Origin: Altererythrobacter sp.
GTDB taxonomy: Bacteria; Pseudomonadota; Alphaproteobacteria; Sphingomonadales; Sphingomonadaceae
Direction of reading: 5' to 3'
Length of the DNA stretch: 47,563 nucleotides
Assembly (NCBI GenBank): GCA_023260985.1
Contig: JALRKY010000028.1
Coordinates: 1-47,563, forward strand
Below, piece after piece: positions 19,910 to 31,337 of the stretch (its first letter is position 1; every line of letters begins with the position of its first letter). A program made the translations under genes and the position numbers. The notes below the pieces were generated by a model, which worked only from the letters and a program-made list of their open reading frames with translations, did no database searches and was not told where the DNA came from.

Positions 19910-20797
19910 CTAGAAGCGGGCTTTTACCAGCAAGGGTTTGAAGATGTTCCGGCTGGGCCTGAGAACGATGATCGCCACGCCGACGATAGCCAGCGCGCAC
20001 CCTACGATCAGCCGCCAGCCGATCACATCGTTGGTGATCAGCGCGCCGAACACGATCGTCAGCAGCGGGGTCATCAAGGTAAGCGGCACCACCAGATTGG
20101 CGTCGTTCTGCTGAAGCATCCGGTAATAGGCGGTGTGCGCCCCGACCGAGACCACGATGCTGGCAAAGAAAAGCGCACCGGCGAATTCGAGCGGCTGCGC
20201 CGCCACTGCGGCAAATTGCCCGCTTTCCGTTGCGAACGAAAGCGGCGCCAACACCACCACCGAAGCAAAGCCAGACCACGCCTGCATCGCGTGCGCATCG
20301 ATCTCGATCCGCTTGAAGAACACTGCACCCAATGACCCGATCACCGCCGCAGCGAACAGCAGCGTCGCGCCCTCGCCGCCGCTCATCCTGGCAGGCGATC
20401 CCATCGCGATAAGCACCCCGCCGAGCGTCAGAAAAATGCCCAGCCCGCGCCGCCAGCGGACCCTTTCACCCAGGAAGATCATGGCGAACACCACCGTCAT
20501 CGGTGCACCCGAGAGGCTGATGATGCCGGCGACCGAAGGCGAGGCGGTCTCAAGCCCCATGAACAACAATGCGAAGGAGCCCCCGCCGATCGCGAGCCCG
20601 ATCAGCAATACTTTGCCCAATTCCTTGGGCAGGGGGCGCAGCAGGTAGGCCAGCGCGACAACCACCAGCAACGCGCGGGCGGATGCATAGAACAGCGGCG
20701 GCACGCCCAGATCGTCGACCACCAGCTTGCTCACAACCACGTTGAGCGACCACACCAGGTTGCAAAGCATCAGGGCGAGGATCGTGCGCAGGCTCAT
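19910..20797 (-). CDS. EamA/DMT family transporter
   Basis: The 295-residue protein has ten hydrophobic helices in two EamA repeats, with the family start SLRTILALMLCNLVWSLNVV and the repeat junction MIFLGERVRWRRGLGIFLTL. The second repeat has PLTLMTPLLTIVFGALITND. Members export metabolites or amino acids; the substrate cannot be deduced. It begins 9 bases after the nadE fusion stop, so it is probably cotranscribed with it. Confidence 0.9.
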   Translation of the reverse strand: MSLRTILALMLCNLVWSLNVVVSKLVVDDLGVPPLFYASARALLVVVALAYLLRPLPKELGKVLLIGLAIGGGSFALLFMGLETASPSVAGIISLSGAPMTVVFAMIFLGERVRWRRGLGIFLTLGGVLIAMGSPARMSGGEGATLLFAAAVIGSLGAVFFKRIEIDAHAMQAWSGFASVVVLAPLSFATESGQFAAVAAQPLEFAGALFFASIVVSVGAHTAYYRMLQQNDANLVVPLTLMTPLLTIVFGALITNDVIGWRLIVGCALAIVGVAIIVLRPSRNIFKPLLVKARF

Positions 20798-20806
20798 CTT
20801 GTGCGC

Positions 20807-23134
20807 TTAACCATCCGAAGGCGGCAGCGCATCGCGCAGCTCGGCCAACCAGACATCCGCCACCGCATCCGACGGCGCGCGCCAGTCGCCGCGCGGCGAA
20901 AGCGCCCCGCCTGCGCTTACCTTGGGCCCATTGGGGATCGCGCTGCGCTTGAACTGGCTGAAGCCGAAGAAGCGCCGCAGGAAATTCTCGAGCCAGTGAC
21001 GGATCGTGGCGAGATCGTATTCGTTTTTTTCCGCCTCCGGGAAACCGGCAGGCCACAGGCCGGCGCGCGCATCGCGCCATGCATGCCATGCGAGAAAGGC
21101 GATCTTGCTGGGCCGCTGGCCCCAACGAATAGTGTGGTGCAGGAAGAAATCGTTGAGCTCATAGGGTCCGATGATGCTTTCGGTGCTCTGGATCTCGCCG
21201 CTTTCACCCGGGGGCACGAGTTCGGGCGAAATCTCGGTGTCGAGGATCGACAGCAGCACTTCGTCGGTCGCGGGATCGAACTGTTCGGTGCTCACCGCCC
21301 AGCGGATCAAGTACTGGATCAGCGTCTTGGGCACGCCCGAATTCACCGCATAATGGCTCATCTGGTCGCCCACGCCATAGGTGCACCAGCCGAGCGCAAG
21401 TTCGCTGAGGTCGCCCGTGCCGATCACGAAACCCGAATGATGGCCCGCAAGGCGGAACAGATAATCGGTGCGCAGCCCAGCCTGCACGTTTTCAAATGTC
21501 ACGTCATGCACCGGCTCGCCTGCGGCGAAGGGGTGCTTCATGTCTTCGAGCATGCGCGTGGCTGCAGGGCGGATGTCGATCTCTTCTGCGGTGATGCCCA
21601 GCGCCTTCATCAGCTTCCAGGCATTCGATTTCGTATGATCCGAAGTAGCGAAGCCCGGCATAGTGTAGCCGCGAATGGTGCTGCGCGGCAGGCCCAGCCG
21701 GTCGCAGCATTTCGCCGCCACGATCAGCGCGTGGGTCGAATCGAGCCCGCCCGAAACACCGATCACCAAGGATTTCGCATGGGTCGATTCGAGCCGCCGC
21801 ATCAGCCCGTCGACTTGGATGTTGAAAGCTTCGTAGCAATCCTCGTCGAGCCGGTGTTGGCGATTGGGCACGAAGGGGAAGCGCCGGGTCGGGCGCACCA
21901 GCCCACGATCGCCCCCGGTCGGCGCGAGTTCGAATGTGATTGTGCGAAAGCTGTCTTCGGGCCGCCCCGCAGCCTCGGCCGCGTCGTTGAAGGTCTGCAT
22001 CCGTGCGCGCTCTGCCAGGATGCGCTCGCAATCGACATCGGCGATGCACAATTCGGCGTGAAGGCTGAAGCGCTCGCTCTCGGCCAGCAAATCGCCCAGT
22101 TCGTAGATCATGCCCTGCCCGTCCCAGGCAAGGTCGGTGGTGCTCTCGCCATGCCCGCTGGCGCAGTAGAGATAGGCCGCGACCGCGCGCGAACTCTGCG
22201 CACGGGCGAGCAGGTGTCGCTCGTCGGATTTTCCGATGGTGATATTGCTTGCCGAAAGGTTCACCAGCACGGTCGCCCCGGCCAGCGCGCCGCGCGTCGA
22301 AGGCGGCGTGGGCGACCAGTAATCCTCGCAGATTTCGACGAACAGGCGGAAGCCCGGCAGGTTCTCCGCCGCGAAGATCAGATCGGTGCCGAAGGGAACC
22401 ACGCTCCCCGCCACCGCGATCTCCATCCCCTTGATCTCGCGGCCATGCGCAAACCAGCGCTTCTCGTAATATTCGCGATAATTGGGCAGGAAGCTCTTGG
22501 GGATGACGCCGAGCAGCCTGCCGCGCGCCACCACCGCGGCGCAATTGTAGATACGCCCATTATGCCTCAGAGGCGCGCCGACCAGCAGCACCGGATCGAA
22601 CTTGCCGCTCGCCGCCGCGATTTCACCAAGCCCCGCCTCGACCGCATCAAGCAGCGCGGATTGCAAATGCAAATCGTCGATAGCGTAGGAGGAAATACAC
22701 AGCTCGGGATAGAGCACCAGGTCCACCCCCGCCTCATGCGCGCGCTCAGCCTCGGCGAGTATCCCCGCAACGTTATAGGCCACGTCTGCCGTGCGCGATT
22801 TCGGCGTGCTGGTCGCGACGCGGACGAAGCCGTGGCGGCGCATGTCGTAAAAGGGATGCGCGCGCCCCTCTTCATCGCTATCCTTATGGGATACTTCAGC
22901 TTCCTTAGAAACATCGGCATCGGGGGAAGTCTCCAGCCAGTCTTCCGGCGCGCAAATGCCCAGCTCCGCCAATCGTTTCTGCACCGGTGCACGCGCGATT
23001 TTCCCCTTAGCTTCCCAGCCATAGACGGTGCGGCTGGGCCAGGGATCGCCATAGCGCGCACCGAATTCCTCCGCCGAAAGCGGCGGTTCATGCGCTTCGC
23101 GCCATTGACGAATCTTGTGTCCAGCCAGATGCAT
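20807..23134 (-). CDS. nadE: NAD+ synthase (glutamine-hydrolysing) with N-terminal HTH fusion
   Basis: NadE makes NAD+ from deamido-NAD+ with glutamine as ammonia donor. Residues 93-775 hold a nitrilase-type glutaminase domain with the triad Glu144 (LYPELCISS), Lys213 (PKSFLPNY) and Cys269 (VEICEDYW). The ammonia-ligase domain follows, with the PP-loop SGGLDST at 461-467. Unusually, residues about 1-68 form an XRE/Cro-like HTH region (IRQWREAHEPPLSAEEFGAR, SRTVYGWEAKGKIARAPVQK). An acidic linker (69-92) follows. No ATG, GTG or TTG occurs in frame between the HTH and the conserved HPFYDM block, so the synthase must be made as a fusion or start at the internal Met98. A 19-bp palindrome lies 10 bases upstream. 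eamA follows. Confidence 0.9.
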   Translation of the reverse strand: MHLAGHKIRQWREAHEPPLSAEEFGARYGDPWPSRTVYGWEAKGKIARAPVQKRLAELGICAPEDWLETSPDADVSKEAEVSHKDSDEEGRAHPFYDMRRHGFVRVATSTPKSRTADVAYNVAGILAEAERAHEAGVDLVLYPELCISSYAIDDLHLQSALLDAVEAGLGEIAAASGKFDPVLLVGAPLRHNGRIYNCAAVVARGRLLGVIPKSFLPNYREYYEKRWFAHGREIKGMEIAVAGSVVPFGTDLIFAAENLPGFRLFVEICEDYWSPTPPSTRGALAGATVLVNLSASNITIGKSDERHLLARAQSSRAVAAYLYCASGHGESTTDLAWDGQGMIYELGDLLAESERFSLHAELCIADVDCERILAERARMQTFNDAAEAAGRPEDSFRTITFELAPTGGDRGLVRPTRRFPFVPNRQHRLDEDCYEAFNIQVDGLMRRLESTHAKSLVIGVSGGLDSTHALIVAAKCCDRLGLPRSTIRGYTMPGFATSDHTKSNAWKLMKALGITAEEIDIRPAATRMLEDMKHPFAAGEPVHDVTFENVQAGLRTDYLFRLAGHHSGFVIGTGDLSELALGWCTYGVGDQMSHYAVNSGVPKTLIQYLIRWAVSTEQFDPATDEVLLSILDTEISPELVPPGESGEIQSTESIIGPYELNDFFLHHTIRWGQRPSKIAFLAWHAWRDARAGLWPAGFPEAEKNEYDLATIRHWLENFLRRFFGFSQFKRSAIPNGPKVSAGGALSPRGDWRAPSDAVADVWLAELRDALPPSDG
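22877..22895. promoter_or_regulatory. Degenerate copy of the nadE palindrome inside the linker
   Basis: GCTATCCTTATGGGATACT matches the upstream palindrome GGTATCCCTTTGGGATACC at 15 of 19 positions. It lies in the linker-coding DNA between the HTH and synthase domains. It could be a second binding site or chance resemblance. Confidence 0.35.
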
Positions 23135-23143
23135 ATCCCGCAA

Positions 23144-23162
23144 GGTATCCCTTTGGGATACC
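23144..23162. promoter_or_regulatory. Perfect palindromic operator candidate upstream of nadE fusion
   Basis: GGTATCCCTTTGGGATACC has 8-bp perfect arms and a 3-base spacer. It lies 10 bases upstream of the fusion's ATG at 23134 and about 130 bases from the divergent yghU. Its size and symmetry suit a dimeric HTH protein, most simply the fused HTH domain itself. Confidence 0.6.
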
Positions 23163-23290
23163 AATGGCAAGTGCTGCTTGCAGGGGTGAAAGCATTTGCC
23201 GCCATCCTCCATGCAGCCATTCCTTGCGCATGGCGGCGCGATGTATAACTTCACATGCGAACGCTCAAACCAGTGACAAGGAACCCGCGC

Positions 23291-24142
23291 ATGGCCGATG
23301 CTTACACCCCGCCTAAGGTCTGGGCCTATGACAAGGAAGCAGGAGGGCGCTTTGCCAGCATCAACCGGCCGACCGCCGGCGCGCAGGTCGAGAAGGCGCT
23401 CCCGGTGGGCGAGAACCCCCTCCAGCTCTATTCGCTCGGCACTCCAAACGGGGTCAAGGTCACGGTGATGCTCGAGGAATTGCTCGAACTCGGTCACAAG
23501 GGCGCCGAGTACGACGCATGGCTGATCAACATCGGCGCCGGCGATCAGTTCACCTCGGGCTTCGTCGGGCTAAACCCCAATTCCAAGATACCCGCGCTCG
23601 AAGATCGCAGCGGCGAGGCACCCTTCCGAGTGTTCGAATCCGGCGCGATCCTGGTCCATCTGGCGGAGAAATTCGGCGAGTTCCTGCCAACCGAACCCGC
23701 CGCGCGCGCCGAGGTGATGAGCTGGCTGTTCTGGCAGGTTGCCTCCGCACCCTTCATCGGCGGCGGCTTCGGCCACTTCTACGCTTACGCACCGGAAAAA
23801 TGGGAATATCCGATCAACCGATATGCGATGGAAGTGAAGCGCATCTTCGATGTCGCCGACAAACGCCTTGCCGAAAGCCGCTACCTCGGGGGCGATGAAT
23901 ACACCATCGCCGACATCGCCAACTGGCCGTGGCTGGCACCCTTTACCACCGGCCATATCTACAACGACGCCAAGACCTTCCTTTCGATCGAAGAATACAA
24001 ACATGTCGGCCGCTGGGTGCAGGATATCTTCAAGCGCCCGGGCGTTCGACGCGGACGGATCGTCAACAAGAGTTGGGGTGATGAAAATACGCAGCTGCCC
24101 GAACGCCATTCGCCGGCCGATTTCGAAGGCAAGGATATCTAG
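23291..24142 (+). CDS. yghU: Glutathione-dependent disulfide-bond oxidoreductase YghU
   Basis: YghU is a Nu-class GST-like protein that reduces disulfides using two bound glutathiones. The 283-residue protein begins MADAYTPPKVWAYDKEAGG and has the long N-terminal extension with FASINRPTAG typical of the class. LGTPNGVKVTVMLEELLELG follows, then NPNSKIPALEDRSG and FESGAILVHLAEKFG of the thioredoxin-like domain. The helical domain holds YTIADIANWPWL. The ATG at 23291 is chosen over an upstream start because it matches the family N-terminus. It is divergent from nadE. Confidence 0.93.
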   Translation: MADAYTPPKVWAYDKEAGGRFASINRPTAGAQVEKALPVGENPLQLYSLGTPNGVKVTVMLEELLELGHKGAEYDAWLINIGAGDQFTSGFVGLNPNSKIPALEDRSGEAPFRVFESGAILVHLAEKFGEFLPTEPAARAEVMSWLFWQVASAPFIGGGFGHFYAYAPEKWEYPINRYAMEVKRIFDVADKRLAESRYLGGDEYTIADIANWPWLAPFTTGHIYNDAKTFLSIEEYKHVGRWVQDIFKRPGVRRGRIVNKSWGDENTQLPERHSPADFEGKDI

Positions 24143-26443: not shown

Positions 26444-27430
26444 TCATGGCGCGCTGCGCGGGAGCGTGGCGTCGGCCAGCACCAGCGCGAAGCGGCTTTC
26501 GCTGTCGGTCCAGCGGCGAATGGGCGTCCACCCCCCTGCCAGCAGCAGCATGTTGCCCGTGCGCCGATCGAATTTGTGGCTATTCTCGTTGTGAATGCTC
26601 TCGCCCGCGCGCATCGTGAAACTCCGCCCCGAAACCGCGAAGGTGATATCGCGCATGGCTACAAGATGCATCTCGATCCGCGCGATATCGTCATTCCAGC
26701 GCGCCTCGTGCCGCAAGGCGTCGAGCGGGATATCGCCATCGAGTTCGCGGTTGATCCGGCGGACGAGGTTGAAATTGAACTCGGCCGTCACGCCTGCCGC
26801 ATCGTCATAGGCAGCGACCAGCACTTCCGGATCCTTGATCTGGTCCATCCCGATCAGCAGCTTGCCGCCCTCGCCCAGCGTTTCGCGCATGGTGCACAAC
26901 AGATCGACCGCGGTACGCGCCACCATGTTGCCGATGGTCGAACCGGGAAAGAAACCGAGCTTGGGAAGTTCCGCGACTTCGCCGGGCAATTCCACCCGCC
27001 GCATGAAGTCCGCCTCGACCGGATAGACCGGCAGGCCCGGGAATTTTGCGGCGAGATCGGCTGCCGAGGCGCGCAGGAAATCGCCCGAGATATCGAGCGG
27101 CACATAGGCCCCAGGCGCAATCGCGGAAAGCAACAGCGGGGTCTTGACCGAGCTGCCCGATCCGAATTCCACCACGGCGCGGCCCGGCCCGATCAGCTCG
27201 GCGAACTCCTTGCTGCGTTCTGTCAGTATCCCGGTCTCGGCCCGGGTCAGGTAATATTCGGGGAGTTGCGTAATCTCCTCGAACAGGCGCGATCCCGCAT
27301 CGTCATAGAACCAGCGCGCTGGCACAGCCTTCTGCGGCTCCGACAGGCCCTGCAGCACGTCGGCGCGGAACGCACGGTCGACGCCGTCCTCGTCCAGATT
27401 AACCAGCGCAATGCCCTTGCGCGCGCTCAT
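26444..27430 (-). CDS. egtD: L-histidine N-alpha-methyltransferase EgtD
   Basis: EgtD trimethylates histidine to hercynine, the first step of ergothioneine synthesis. The 328-residue protein has PARWFYDDAGSRLFEEITQL, TRAETGILTERSKEFAEL, the SAM motif VVEFGSGSSVKT, and GFFPGSTIGNM. All are family hallmarks. Its ATG overlaps the egtB stop by four bases (ATGA), so the two are translationally coupled. Confidence 0.97.
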   Translation of the reverse strand: MSARKGIALVNLDEDGVDRAFRADVLQGLSEPQKAVPARWFYDDAGSRLFEEITQLPEYYLTRAETGILTERSKEFAELIGPGRAVVEFGSGSSVKTPLLLSAIAPGAYVPLDISGDFLRASAADLAAKFPGLPVYPVEADFMRRVELPGEVAELPKLGFFPGSTIGNMVARTAVDLLCTMRETLGEGGKLLIGMDQIKDPEVLVAAYDDAAGVTAEFNFNLVRRINRELDGDIPLDALRHEARWNDDIARIEMHLVAMRDITFAVSGRSFTMRAGESIHNENSHKFDRRTGNMLLLAGGWTPIRRWTDSESRFALVLADATLPRSAP

Positions 27431-29957: not shown

Positions 29958-31337
29958 TCAGGCGGCGTCCGCCTGCCGCTCGCATGCCTGCTGGTTGAGC
30001 ATTTCGGCAAGCAGGAAAGCCAGCTCCAGCGATTGCGCCGCGTTGAGCCGCGGGTCGCAATGCGTGTGATAGCGATCGCCCAGCGCATCATCGGTGATCG
30101 CCACCGCACCGCCCACGCATTCGGTCACGTCCTGCCCGGTCATCTCGATATGGATCCCCCCCGGATGGGTGCCTTCGGCGCGGTGGACCGCGAAGAAGCC
30201 CTTAACTTCGGACAGGATGCGGTCGAACGGGCGCGTCTTGTATCCGCTGCCCGACTTGATCACATTGCCGTGCATCGGGTCGCAGCTCCACACCACCGGA
30301 TGGCCTTCGCGCGTGACCGCCCGCACCAGCCGCGGCAGACCTTCCTCTACCTTGTCGTGGCCGAAGCGGCCGATCAGCGTGATCCGCCCTGCTTCGCGCG
30401 CGGGATTGAGCGTGTCGAGCAGGCGCAACAGCGCATCCGGCTCTAGGGTTGGCCCGCACTTCATACCGATCGGATTGCCGACGCCGCGCAGGAACTCGAC
30501 ATGCGCCGAGCCTTCGAAGCGGGTCCGGTCGCCGATCCAAAGCATGTGCGCCGAACAATCGTACCAGTCGCCGGTGAGCGAATCGCGCCGGGTCAGCGCC
30601 TGCTCGTAAGGCAGCAGGAGTGCTTCGTGGCTGGTGTAGAAGCTGGTGCCCTGCAGTTGCGGTACGGTGGCCGGATCGATCCCGCAGGCTTCCATGAAGT
30701 CGAGCGCTTCGCCAATCCGGTCGGCAACGTCGCTGAATCGGTCAGCCCAGGGCGTACGACCCATGAAATCGAGCGTCCACTGGTGCACCTGGCGCAGATT
30801 GGCGTAACCGCCGCCGGCAAAGGCGCGCAGCAGGTTGAGCGTGGCGGCTGCCTGCGAATAGGCCTTCACCATGCGCGCCGGATCGTTGCGCCGTGCCTCG
30901 GAATCGAACTCGATGCCGTTGATATTGTCGCCAAGGTAGCTCGGCAGAGTCACGTCGCCCTGCGTCTCCGTGAGCGAGCTGCGCGGCTTTGCGAACTGCC
31001 CTGCCATGCGGCCCACCTTCACCAAGGGGCGCTTGCTGGCAAAGGTCATCACGACCGCCATCTGCAACAGCACGCGGAAGGTGTCGCGGATATTGTTCGG
31101 GTGGAACTCGGCGAAGCTCTCGGCGCAATCGCCGCCCTGCAGCAGGAAGCCGTGGCCCTGCGCTACTTCGGCCAGTTCCGCCTTCAGCGCGCGCGCTTCA
31201 CCCGCGAAGACAAGCGGCGGATAGGTCGCGAGCGTAGCTTCCGCCGCGGCCAATTCAGCTGCGTCTTCATATTGCGGCAGATGCCGCGCTTCATGGGCTT
31301 TCCAGCCCTCGGGTATCCAATTCTGCGCCACGTTCAC
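29958..31337 (-). CDS. aroG: 3-deoxy-7-phosphoheptulonate synthase, class II
   Basis: This enzyme condenses phosphoenolpyruvate and erythrose 4-phosphate, the first step of aromatic synthesis. The 459-residue protein is the plant/actinobacterial class II type. It has [16 protein letters not shown], the block [16 protein letters not shown], and [52 protein letters not shown] and [18 protein letters not shown] follow. Class II enzymes differ from class I in feedback control. The symbol follows the mycobacterial usage. Confidence 0.95.

Follow-up and report, generated by a model that had tools for sequence, protein, structure and literature searches.

A helix-turn-helix domain fused to NAD+ synthase in Sphingomonadaceae, and a predicted operator before the fused gene

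In NadR, a helix-turn-helix (HTH) domain is placed in the same chain as enzymatic domains, and the protein also has ribosylnicotinamide kinase activity. Excerpts of two papers describe NadR of the Enterobacteriales as an HTH joined to an NAD-pathway enzyme and acting on DNA (PMC8249747; PMC5343134); in the excerpt of the first it carries NMN adenylyltransferase and is multi-target (PMC8249747), and in the survey excerpted from the second it is absent from other proteobacterial lineages (PMC5343134). The protein that we describe here is encoded in a 47,563-nucleotide stretch of DNA from Altererythrobacter sp., the whole of which was analysed (the window). It resembles NadR in joining an HTH to an enzyme of NAD synthesis, and differs from it in that the enzyme is NadE and in that its own gene is the only supported target. 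We found no NMN adenylyltransferase or ribosylnicotinamide kinase domain among its Pfam matches, and the NCBIfam models above cut-off were NadE models only. BzdR likewise consists of a DNA-binding domain, a linker and an enzyme-derived (shikimate-kinase-like) domain (PMC3602430); it is no longer catalytic and its targets are other genes, whereas the protein described here has intact catalytic residues and is the sole NadE found. Searches of the window protein with Pfam and NCBIfam gave no shikimate-kinase-like C-terminal domain. By domain content, the fusion is neither NadR nor BzdR.

PutA, BirA and PepA differ from HTH-NadE in their folds, targets and signals. They resemble it in being enzymes with DNA-binding activity, and the excerpt that treats them gives PutA and PepA as single-target (PMC8249747). 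NrtR and NadQ are separate regulators and, unlike HTH-NadE, are not fused to a pathway enzyme. NrtR controls NAD genes through palindromes. The same is described for NadQ in the excerpted text (PMC5343134), and the NadQ motif, ttATRCTCannntGAGYATaa, differs from GTATCCYWWWRGGATAC. Type 1 NadE, the class of the M. tuberculosis enzyme, is octameric according to the excerpt of a further paper (PMC7196632). The M. tuberculosis protein shares the whole enzyme part of the fusion; its chain has no HTH, and the match begins at its residue 4. Our literature searches turned up no account of an HTH fused to NadE or to DAHPS, in agreement with the first-pass annotation of this DNA, which knew of none. We propose, with a probability of about 0.78, that one protein acts both as the NAD synthase of the cell and as a DNA-binding repressor of its own gene.

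The HTH-NadE gene and its product

The window gene is read from an ATG at 23134 to a stop codon at 20807-20809 on the minus strand, and is divided as follows.

20807..23134, minus strand: fused HTH-NadE coding sequence, 775 aa, stop included (ORF, profile search and in-frame homologues)
22931..23134, minus strand: N-terminal Cro/CI (XRE)-like HTH domain, aa 1-68 (profile matches, AlphaFold2 and Foldseek)
22859..22930, minus strand: linker, aa 69-92 (of differing length among species; predicted to be disordered)
20810..22858, minus strand: NadE1-type glutamine-dependent NAD+ synthase, aa 93-775 (profile and motifs)

The 775-aa ORF and its in-frame homologues confirm that an HTH is fused in frame to a complete glutamine-dependent NadE, as had been read from the window sequence at the outset. 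The glutaminase and synthetase domains are of NadE1 type and full length, and are matched by the Pfam domains CN_hydrolase and NAD_synthase. The NCBIfam model NF002730 (NAD(+) synthase) covers aa 94-769 at 1060 bits, and the M. tuberculosis NadE structure 3dla aligns to aa 95-771, nearly end to end (E 3.8e-263). Residues E144, K213 and C269, which we take to be the glutaminase triad of NadE, are invariant among 46 fused proteins, as is the SGGLDS motif (461-466).

Neither Pfam nor NCBIfam makes a call for the HTH of the window copy. Pfam HTH_31 matches three of 36 members at E<=0.5, none of the heads examined scores above the cut-off of a Pfam HTH model, and a sequence search of solved structures gave no match to the head below E 0.1. 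An AlphaFold2 model of the head has five helices at a mean pLDDT of 88.4, within the four- to five-helix repressor-like fold of XRE (Cro/CI) HTH domains. In a Foldseek search of the PDB with this model, the leading matches were mostly of Cro/CI type (MBF1, HigA, BldD, P22 c2, 434), all of them weak (TMq about 0.5-0.64; E-values all >0.3). In a full-length model the head is poorly resolved, at low confidence, and aa 67-90 fall below pLDDT 50, as a disordered tether joining head and enzyme. The acidic linker of the first-pass annotation is present in the window copy; in other copies, many linkers are Lys/Ala-rich, and linker length, measured by pattern, runs from 12 to 56 aa across species.

If translation began internally, the head would not be made and the in-frame HTH would be a relic. 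Consistent with such a relic, an ATG is kept in the linker in 59 of 77 named loci, often near the start of unfused NadE. In the window gene, however, the in-frame starts within aa 1-110 are, CTGs apart, ATG1, GTG51, TTG55 and ATG98. GTG51 and TTG55 sit within the end of the HTH and the linker contains no ATG, GTG or TTG, bearing out the earlier observation that the stretch from the HTH to the conserved HPFYDM block lacks these codons. Linker ATGs in other loci seldom have a strong ribosome site: a Shine-Dalgarno match of at least 4 was found for 8/59 linker ATGs, as compared with 28/60 unfused nadE starts, the positions of which were approximately placed (Fisher p ~1e-4). The same match was found for the fusion ATG in 24/77 loci. 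Because strong Shine-Dalgarno matches are rare at linker ATGs and the window linker has no such codon, we expect the fused product to be the only or main product. The HTH is, moreover, under purifying selection, with a median dN/dS of 0.153 (1223 usable pairs), below the median of 0.200 for the NadE blocks (1930 usable pairs), both medians being taken without an identity filter on pairs. Selection on the head is at least as strong as selection on NadE. These observations, and an operator that follows the HTH in 91/91 loci (see below), make an unmade or vestigial head very improbable.

Distribution of the head on NadE and other enzymes

The window genome is an 82-contig draft with one NadE match only, and an apparent fusion could come from a frameshift or assembly error that joins two genes. 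When the window protein was compared with its own genome and 60 relatives, ten genomes (the window's included) gave a full-length match; in others of the genus, the match starts only at query residue 77-92. An HTH profile found a single match in each of 31 genomes of the genus, out of 114 searched. The other 83 genomes had no match and, because those inspected have a NadE without the HTH, the head is dispensable. Thirty of the 31 matched loci were returned, and in all 30 the reading frame runs on into the NadE N-terminus, with the synthetase motif seen in 27. Two of the three incomplete loci (L046 and L057) end at a contig edge, and the third, L058, is cut short by a stop near aa 300. Like L058, L208 is a MAG fusion gene in which a stop codon interrupts the NadE frame at about aa 296-301; both were matched at contig positions 18740-18946 and are probably a single record.

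We then considered a sample of the family, in which the head was found in 69 of 397 genomes and 19 of 96 genera. Sixty of the 69 heads are fused to NadE, in frames of >=564 aa, and seven to class II DAHP synthase, in frames of 531-542 aa, both assigned by motif (G523 being L102); two are short separate ORFs, in frames of 77 and 85 aa. The first-pass annotation had proposed that N-terminal HTH domains be sought among NadE proteins and their spread mapped; these 60 fusions belong to 16 of the 96 sampled genera, being the 19 less the genus with the DAHP synthase fusion and two with a standalone head. Named records of the fusion include Qipengyuania citrea, Q. flava, Pontixanthobacter luteolus, Aurantiacibacter xanthus, Croceibacterium selenioxidans, Tsuneonella flava and Altererythrobacter xiamenensis. 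We parsed 77 of 78 named loci, leaving out L236 (a Novosphingobium MAG); this set overlaps the other genomes. The NadE N-terminus is reached in 77/77 and the synthetase motif is in frame in 73. Of the remaining four frames, two end at a contig edge, one meets an early stop and one is full-length, with a motif that the pattern missed. A search of the order placed the head in 37 of 196 genomes, all of Sphingomonadaceae. A search of the class matched 9 of 337 genomes, among which the four strong ones are of the same family; the six weak places that we opened resemble common regulators or frames open by chance. No stop parts the HTH from nadE in the fused loci examined, an arrangement that would have spoken against the fusion, and the unfused relatives examined have no head. 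As tens of genomes, named isolates among them, share this in-frame fusion, a frameshift or assembly error can for practical purposes be dismissed.

The fusions to DAHP synthase, which catalyses the first step in making the aromatic amino acids, are all of genus g112 (L094, L095, L096 and L130-L133). L094 matches TIGR01358 at 684 bits over aa 77-521, and the other six were assigned by motif. The g112 head is homologous to the NadE head (profile-profile probability 98.5%, E 1.6e-15). In the g112 genomes G339 and G378 the NadE gene (L265, L266) has no head, and in G290, also of g112, neither NadE nor DAHP synthase carries one. Profile searches of 114 genus and 397 family genomes gave no genome with two heads. 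The window itself also contains an unfused class II DAHP synthase gene (29991-31319, minus strand).

Two standalone heads of 73-75 aa (L097:3480-3701 and L098:3246-3473) lie upstream of weakly TraI-like genes. The L097 head (73 aa) overlaps the next gene, which is TraI-like at 44 bits against a cut-off of 930, by a few bases, and has a near-palindrome, TTATTC-N5-GGATAA, before its ATG; L098 has no clear palindrome. The DAHP synthase and standalone heads examined reach 22-27 bits at best with Pfam HTH_31/HTH_3, below the cut-offs. A standalone head beside a TraI-like gene would be a hint of mobile origin, not proof, and the L097 relative may point to the source of the head. Neither the 50,697 phage records nor the 72,556 plasmid records searched contain a match to the L097 head, and the window head likewise had none in the plasmid records.

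To place the fusion on a phylogeny, we used 139 of 174 NadE cores, having removed 35 that shared >95% identity with another core of the same label. The tree requires 13 or more changes of the trait, nine of them forced by well-supported branches, and the trait is clustered far beyond what shuffled labels give. Distances between HTH domains are correlated with distances between NadE domains (Mantel r 0.39; 0/2000 permutations as high). One gain with 17 losses, or several gains, would both be possible on this tree.

Predicted operator, promoter-like elements and recognition helix

Upstream of the window ATG stands GTATCCCAAAGGGATAC (23145-23161), a palindrome 10 nt from the start codon. The predicted elements are as follows.

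23145..23161, minus strand: candidate operator O1, GTATCC-N5-GGATAC, with 8-bp perfect arms at 23144-23151 and 23155-23162
23167..23170, minus strand: TTGC, -35-like, 5 nt upstream of the palindrome, conserved
23144..23149, minus strand: -10-like GATACC/T, coinciding with the right operator arm, in conserved strings
22878..22894, minus strand: second operator-like site in linker codons, 11 of 12, about 267 nt from O1

Operator scores were 10-12 of 12 in 30/30 fused loci of the genus and 11-12 of 12 in all 77 parsed named loci, the named and unnamed sets overlapping. The named loci have 33 distinct 17-mers, and the palindrome ends 9-10 nt from the ATG in 62/77. By contrast, the best score within 300 nt of unfused nadE was 7-8 of 12 in 20 loci of the genus, the palindrome being absent, and 7-9 of 12 in 40 further loci (39 of the family and one of another family). 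Since the fused relatives that were scored have the palindrome and their unfused counterparts lack it, binding of the protein to its own promoter is likely. The linker site reaches 11/12 in the window (L031) and one close relative (L037) and <=10/12 in 24 of the 26 loci scored, and we treated it as minor.

The sequence upstream of the palindrome contains TTG in 28/28 distinct genus strings, and TTGC at the same place in 62/77 named loci, with one base off in 13. As the right arm forms GATACT/C, the palindrome would lie within the promoter, between a -35-like TTGC and a -10-like GATACT, and transcription would start at or beside the ATG, near its A, giving a leaderless or nearly leaderless transcript. 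The spacing between TTGC and GATACT is short (~15 nt). We infer this promoter from the conserved strings, since a scan for the sigma-70 consensus found no promoter site upstream of the fused gene.

The operator class agrees with the class of the recognition helix in 91/91 fused genes. WPSRTVYGWE pairs with GTATCC-N5-GGATAC in 80/80 loci, FKTQTVFGWE with TTATCC-N5-GGATAA in 4/4, and GSTVQGWE with TTACCC-N5-GGGTAA in 7/7, the last being the DAHP synthase fusions. The four FKTQTVFGWE loci (L099, L103, L128 and L129) are HTH-NadE genes of genus g99, with a TTATCC-type site at 10-11 of 12. In all seven DAHP synthase fusions the TTACCC palindrome lies 9-12 nt before the ATG at 11-12 of 12, as compared with at most 8 of 12 in 14 loci of unfused DAHP synthase. 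The rows are related, so the 91 loci are not 91 independent events; the covariation amounts to at least two coupled specificity switches.

HTH proteins can also activate, and the promoter elements match the consensus poorly, so the head could instead activate, or could regulate other genes globally, and be no repressor of nadE. The palindrome, however, sits between the -35-like and -10-like elements, which is a repressor position. We searched 16 fused genomes for one-mismatch operator sites, with the reversed pattern as a control, and found 2-9 sites per genome for the operator and 1-10 for the control, the forward count not exceeding the control in 12/16. Twelve further sites were opened (nine in eight regions, plus three), most one-mismatch sites lying outside those opened, and 12/12 are inside ORFs that are 247 aa or longer. 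Of the nine, six fall in one peptide, DG[IL]LKGYMQD, of a gene that we take to be TldD-like. No NAD gene was seen as a further target among the opened sites. With one-mismatch sites at or near background and the 12 opened sites intragenic, we rejected a wider regulon; the protein appears to regulate one target, its own gene, and a role as activator or global regulator is unlikely. One operator-like site (11/12; L280:6646-6662) lies inside an ORF that is EamA-like by eye, and was judged to be chance.

Two genes flank the fusion in the window.

19910..20797, minus strand: eamA, 9 nt after the nadE stop (ORF list)
23255..24142, plus strand: divergent gene, presumably YghU/GST-like, the usual upstream neighbour

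The first-pass annotation had put eamA in an operon repressed by the fusion. The gene adjoins nadE in the window, where co-transcription is probable, but it is downstream on the same strand in only 15 of the 69 named loci with enough downstream sequence, which weakens the operon and suggests an occasional passenger. The presumed YghU/GST-like gene is upstream and divergent in 55/76 named loci. Elsewhere in the window, a 328-aa ORF (26444-27430, minus strand) resembles, by eye, what we take to be an EgtD-type histidine methyltransferase.

Regulatory reading and significance

On the sequence comparisons above, autoregulation of the fused nadE is well supported. The first-pass proposal, that the enzyme is a sensor-regulator of its own nadE, stands as regards a genuine fusion that most likely binds its own promoter and is trigger-enzyme-like, as the palindrome and the covariation indicate; direct binding, repression rather than activation, and a response to ligand we each infer. 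The best reading would be a trigger enzyme, NadR-like in its working, with another enzyme part. The NadE1-type oligomer would offer several tethered heads, two of which would grip the 17-bp palindrome between the -35-like and -10-like elements, before the ATG of the HTH, and RNA polymerase would be shut off once the cell has sufficient enzyme. Since enzyme and sensor are one, binding would probably also be set by catalytic state (NAD+ or NaAD/ATP/glutamine bound), and NAD demand would then set nadE expression. The predicted repressor may accordingly be under the control of NAD, NaAD, ATP or glutamine.

The HTH might instead do nothing more than steady the amount of NadE through its concentration, with no metabolite altering its binding to DNA. 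The evidence for autoregulation counts equally for such a concentration-only mechanism, the variable, predicted-disordered linker makes tight allosteric coupling less obvious, and the same kind of head is found on an unrelated enzyme. However, a covalent link is needless for feedback alone. NAD synthase and DAHP synthase are feedback-regulated in other bacteria, and heads on two feedback-regulated biosynthetic enzymes would be a coincidence if nothing were sensed. We regard concentration-only control as a real contender, but one that we would bet against.

The trigger-enzyme reading can be extended to both kinds of fusion. Two or more unrelated sphingomonad enzymes may each have acquired, in frame, a portable promoter-operator-HTH cassette and become a one-gene homeostat, an idea to which we give slightly less than an even chance. 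The enzyme in each fusion would be sensor, repressor and catalyst at once, and operator and recognition helix would have re-specialised together (GTATCC, TTATCC and TTACCC half-sites), so that the copies would not cross-talk.

The three pairs of helix and operator offer a ready-made test of HTH specificity, close relatives without head and operator are natural controls, and the linker start codons, taken as a series, may hold a record of how a fusion becomes fixed. If our reading is true, HTH-NadE would join NadR as a second HTH-enzyme of NAD synthesis that was built independently, one that sits on the last step of the NAD pathway and is found across many genera. To judge from the parallel fusion on DAHP synthase, regulation seems able to evolve repeatedly by the attachment of one type of repressor to an enzyme.
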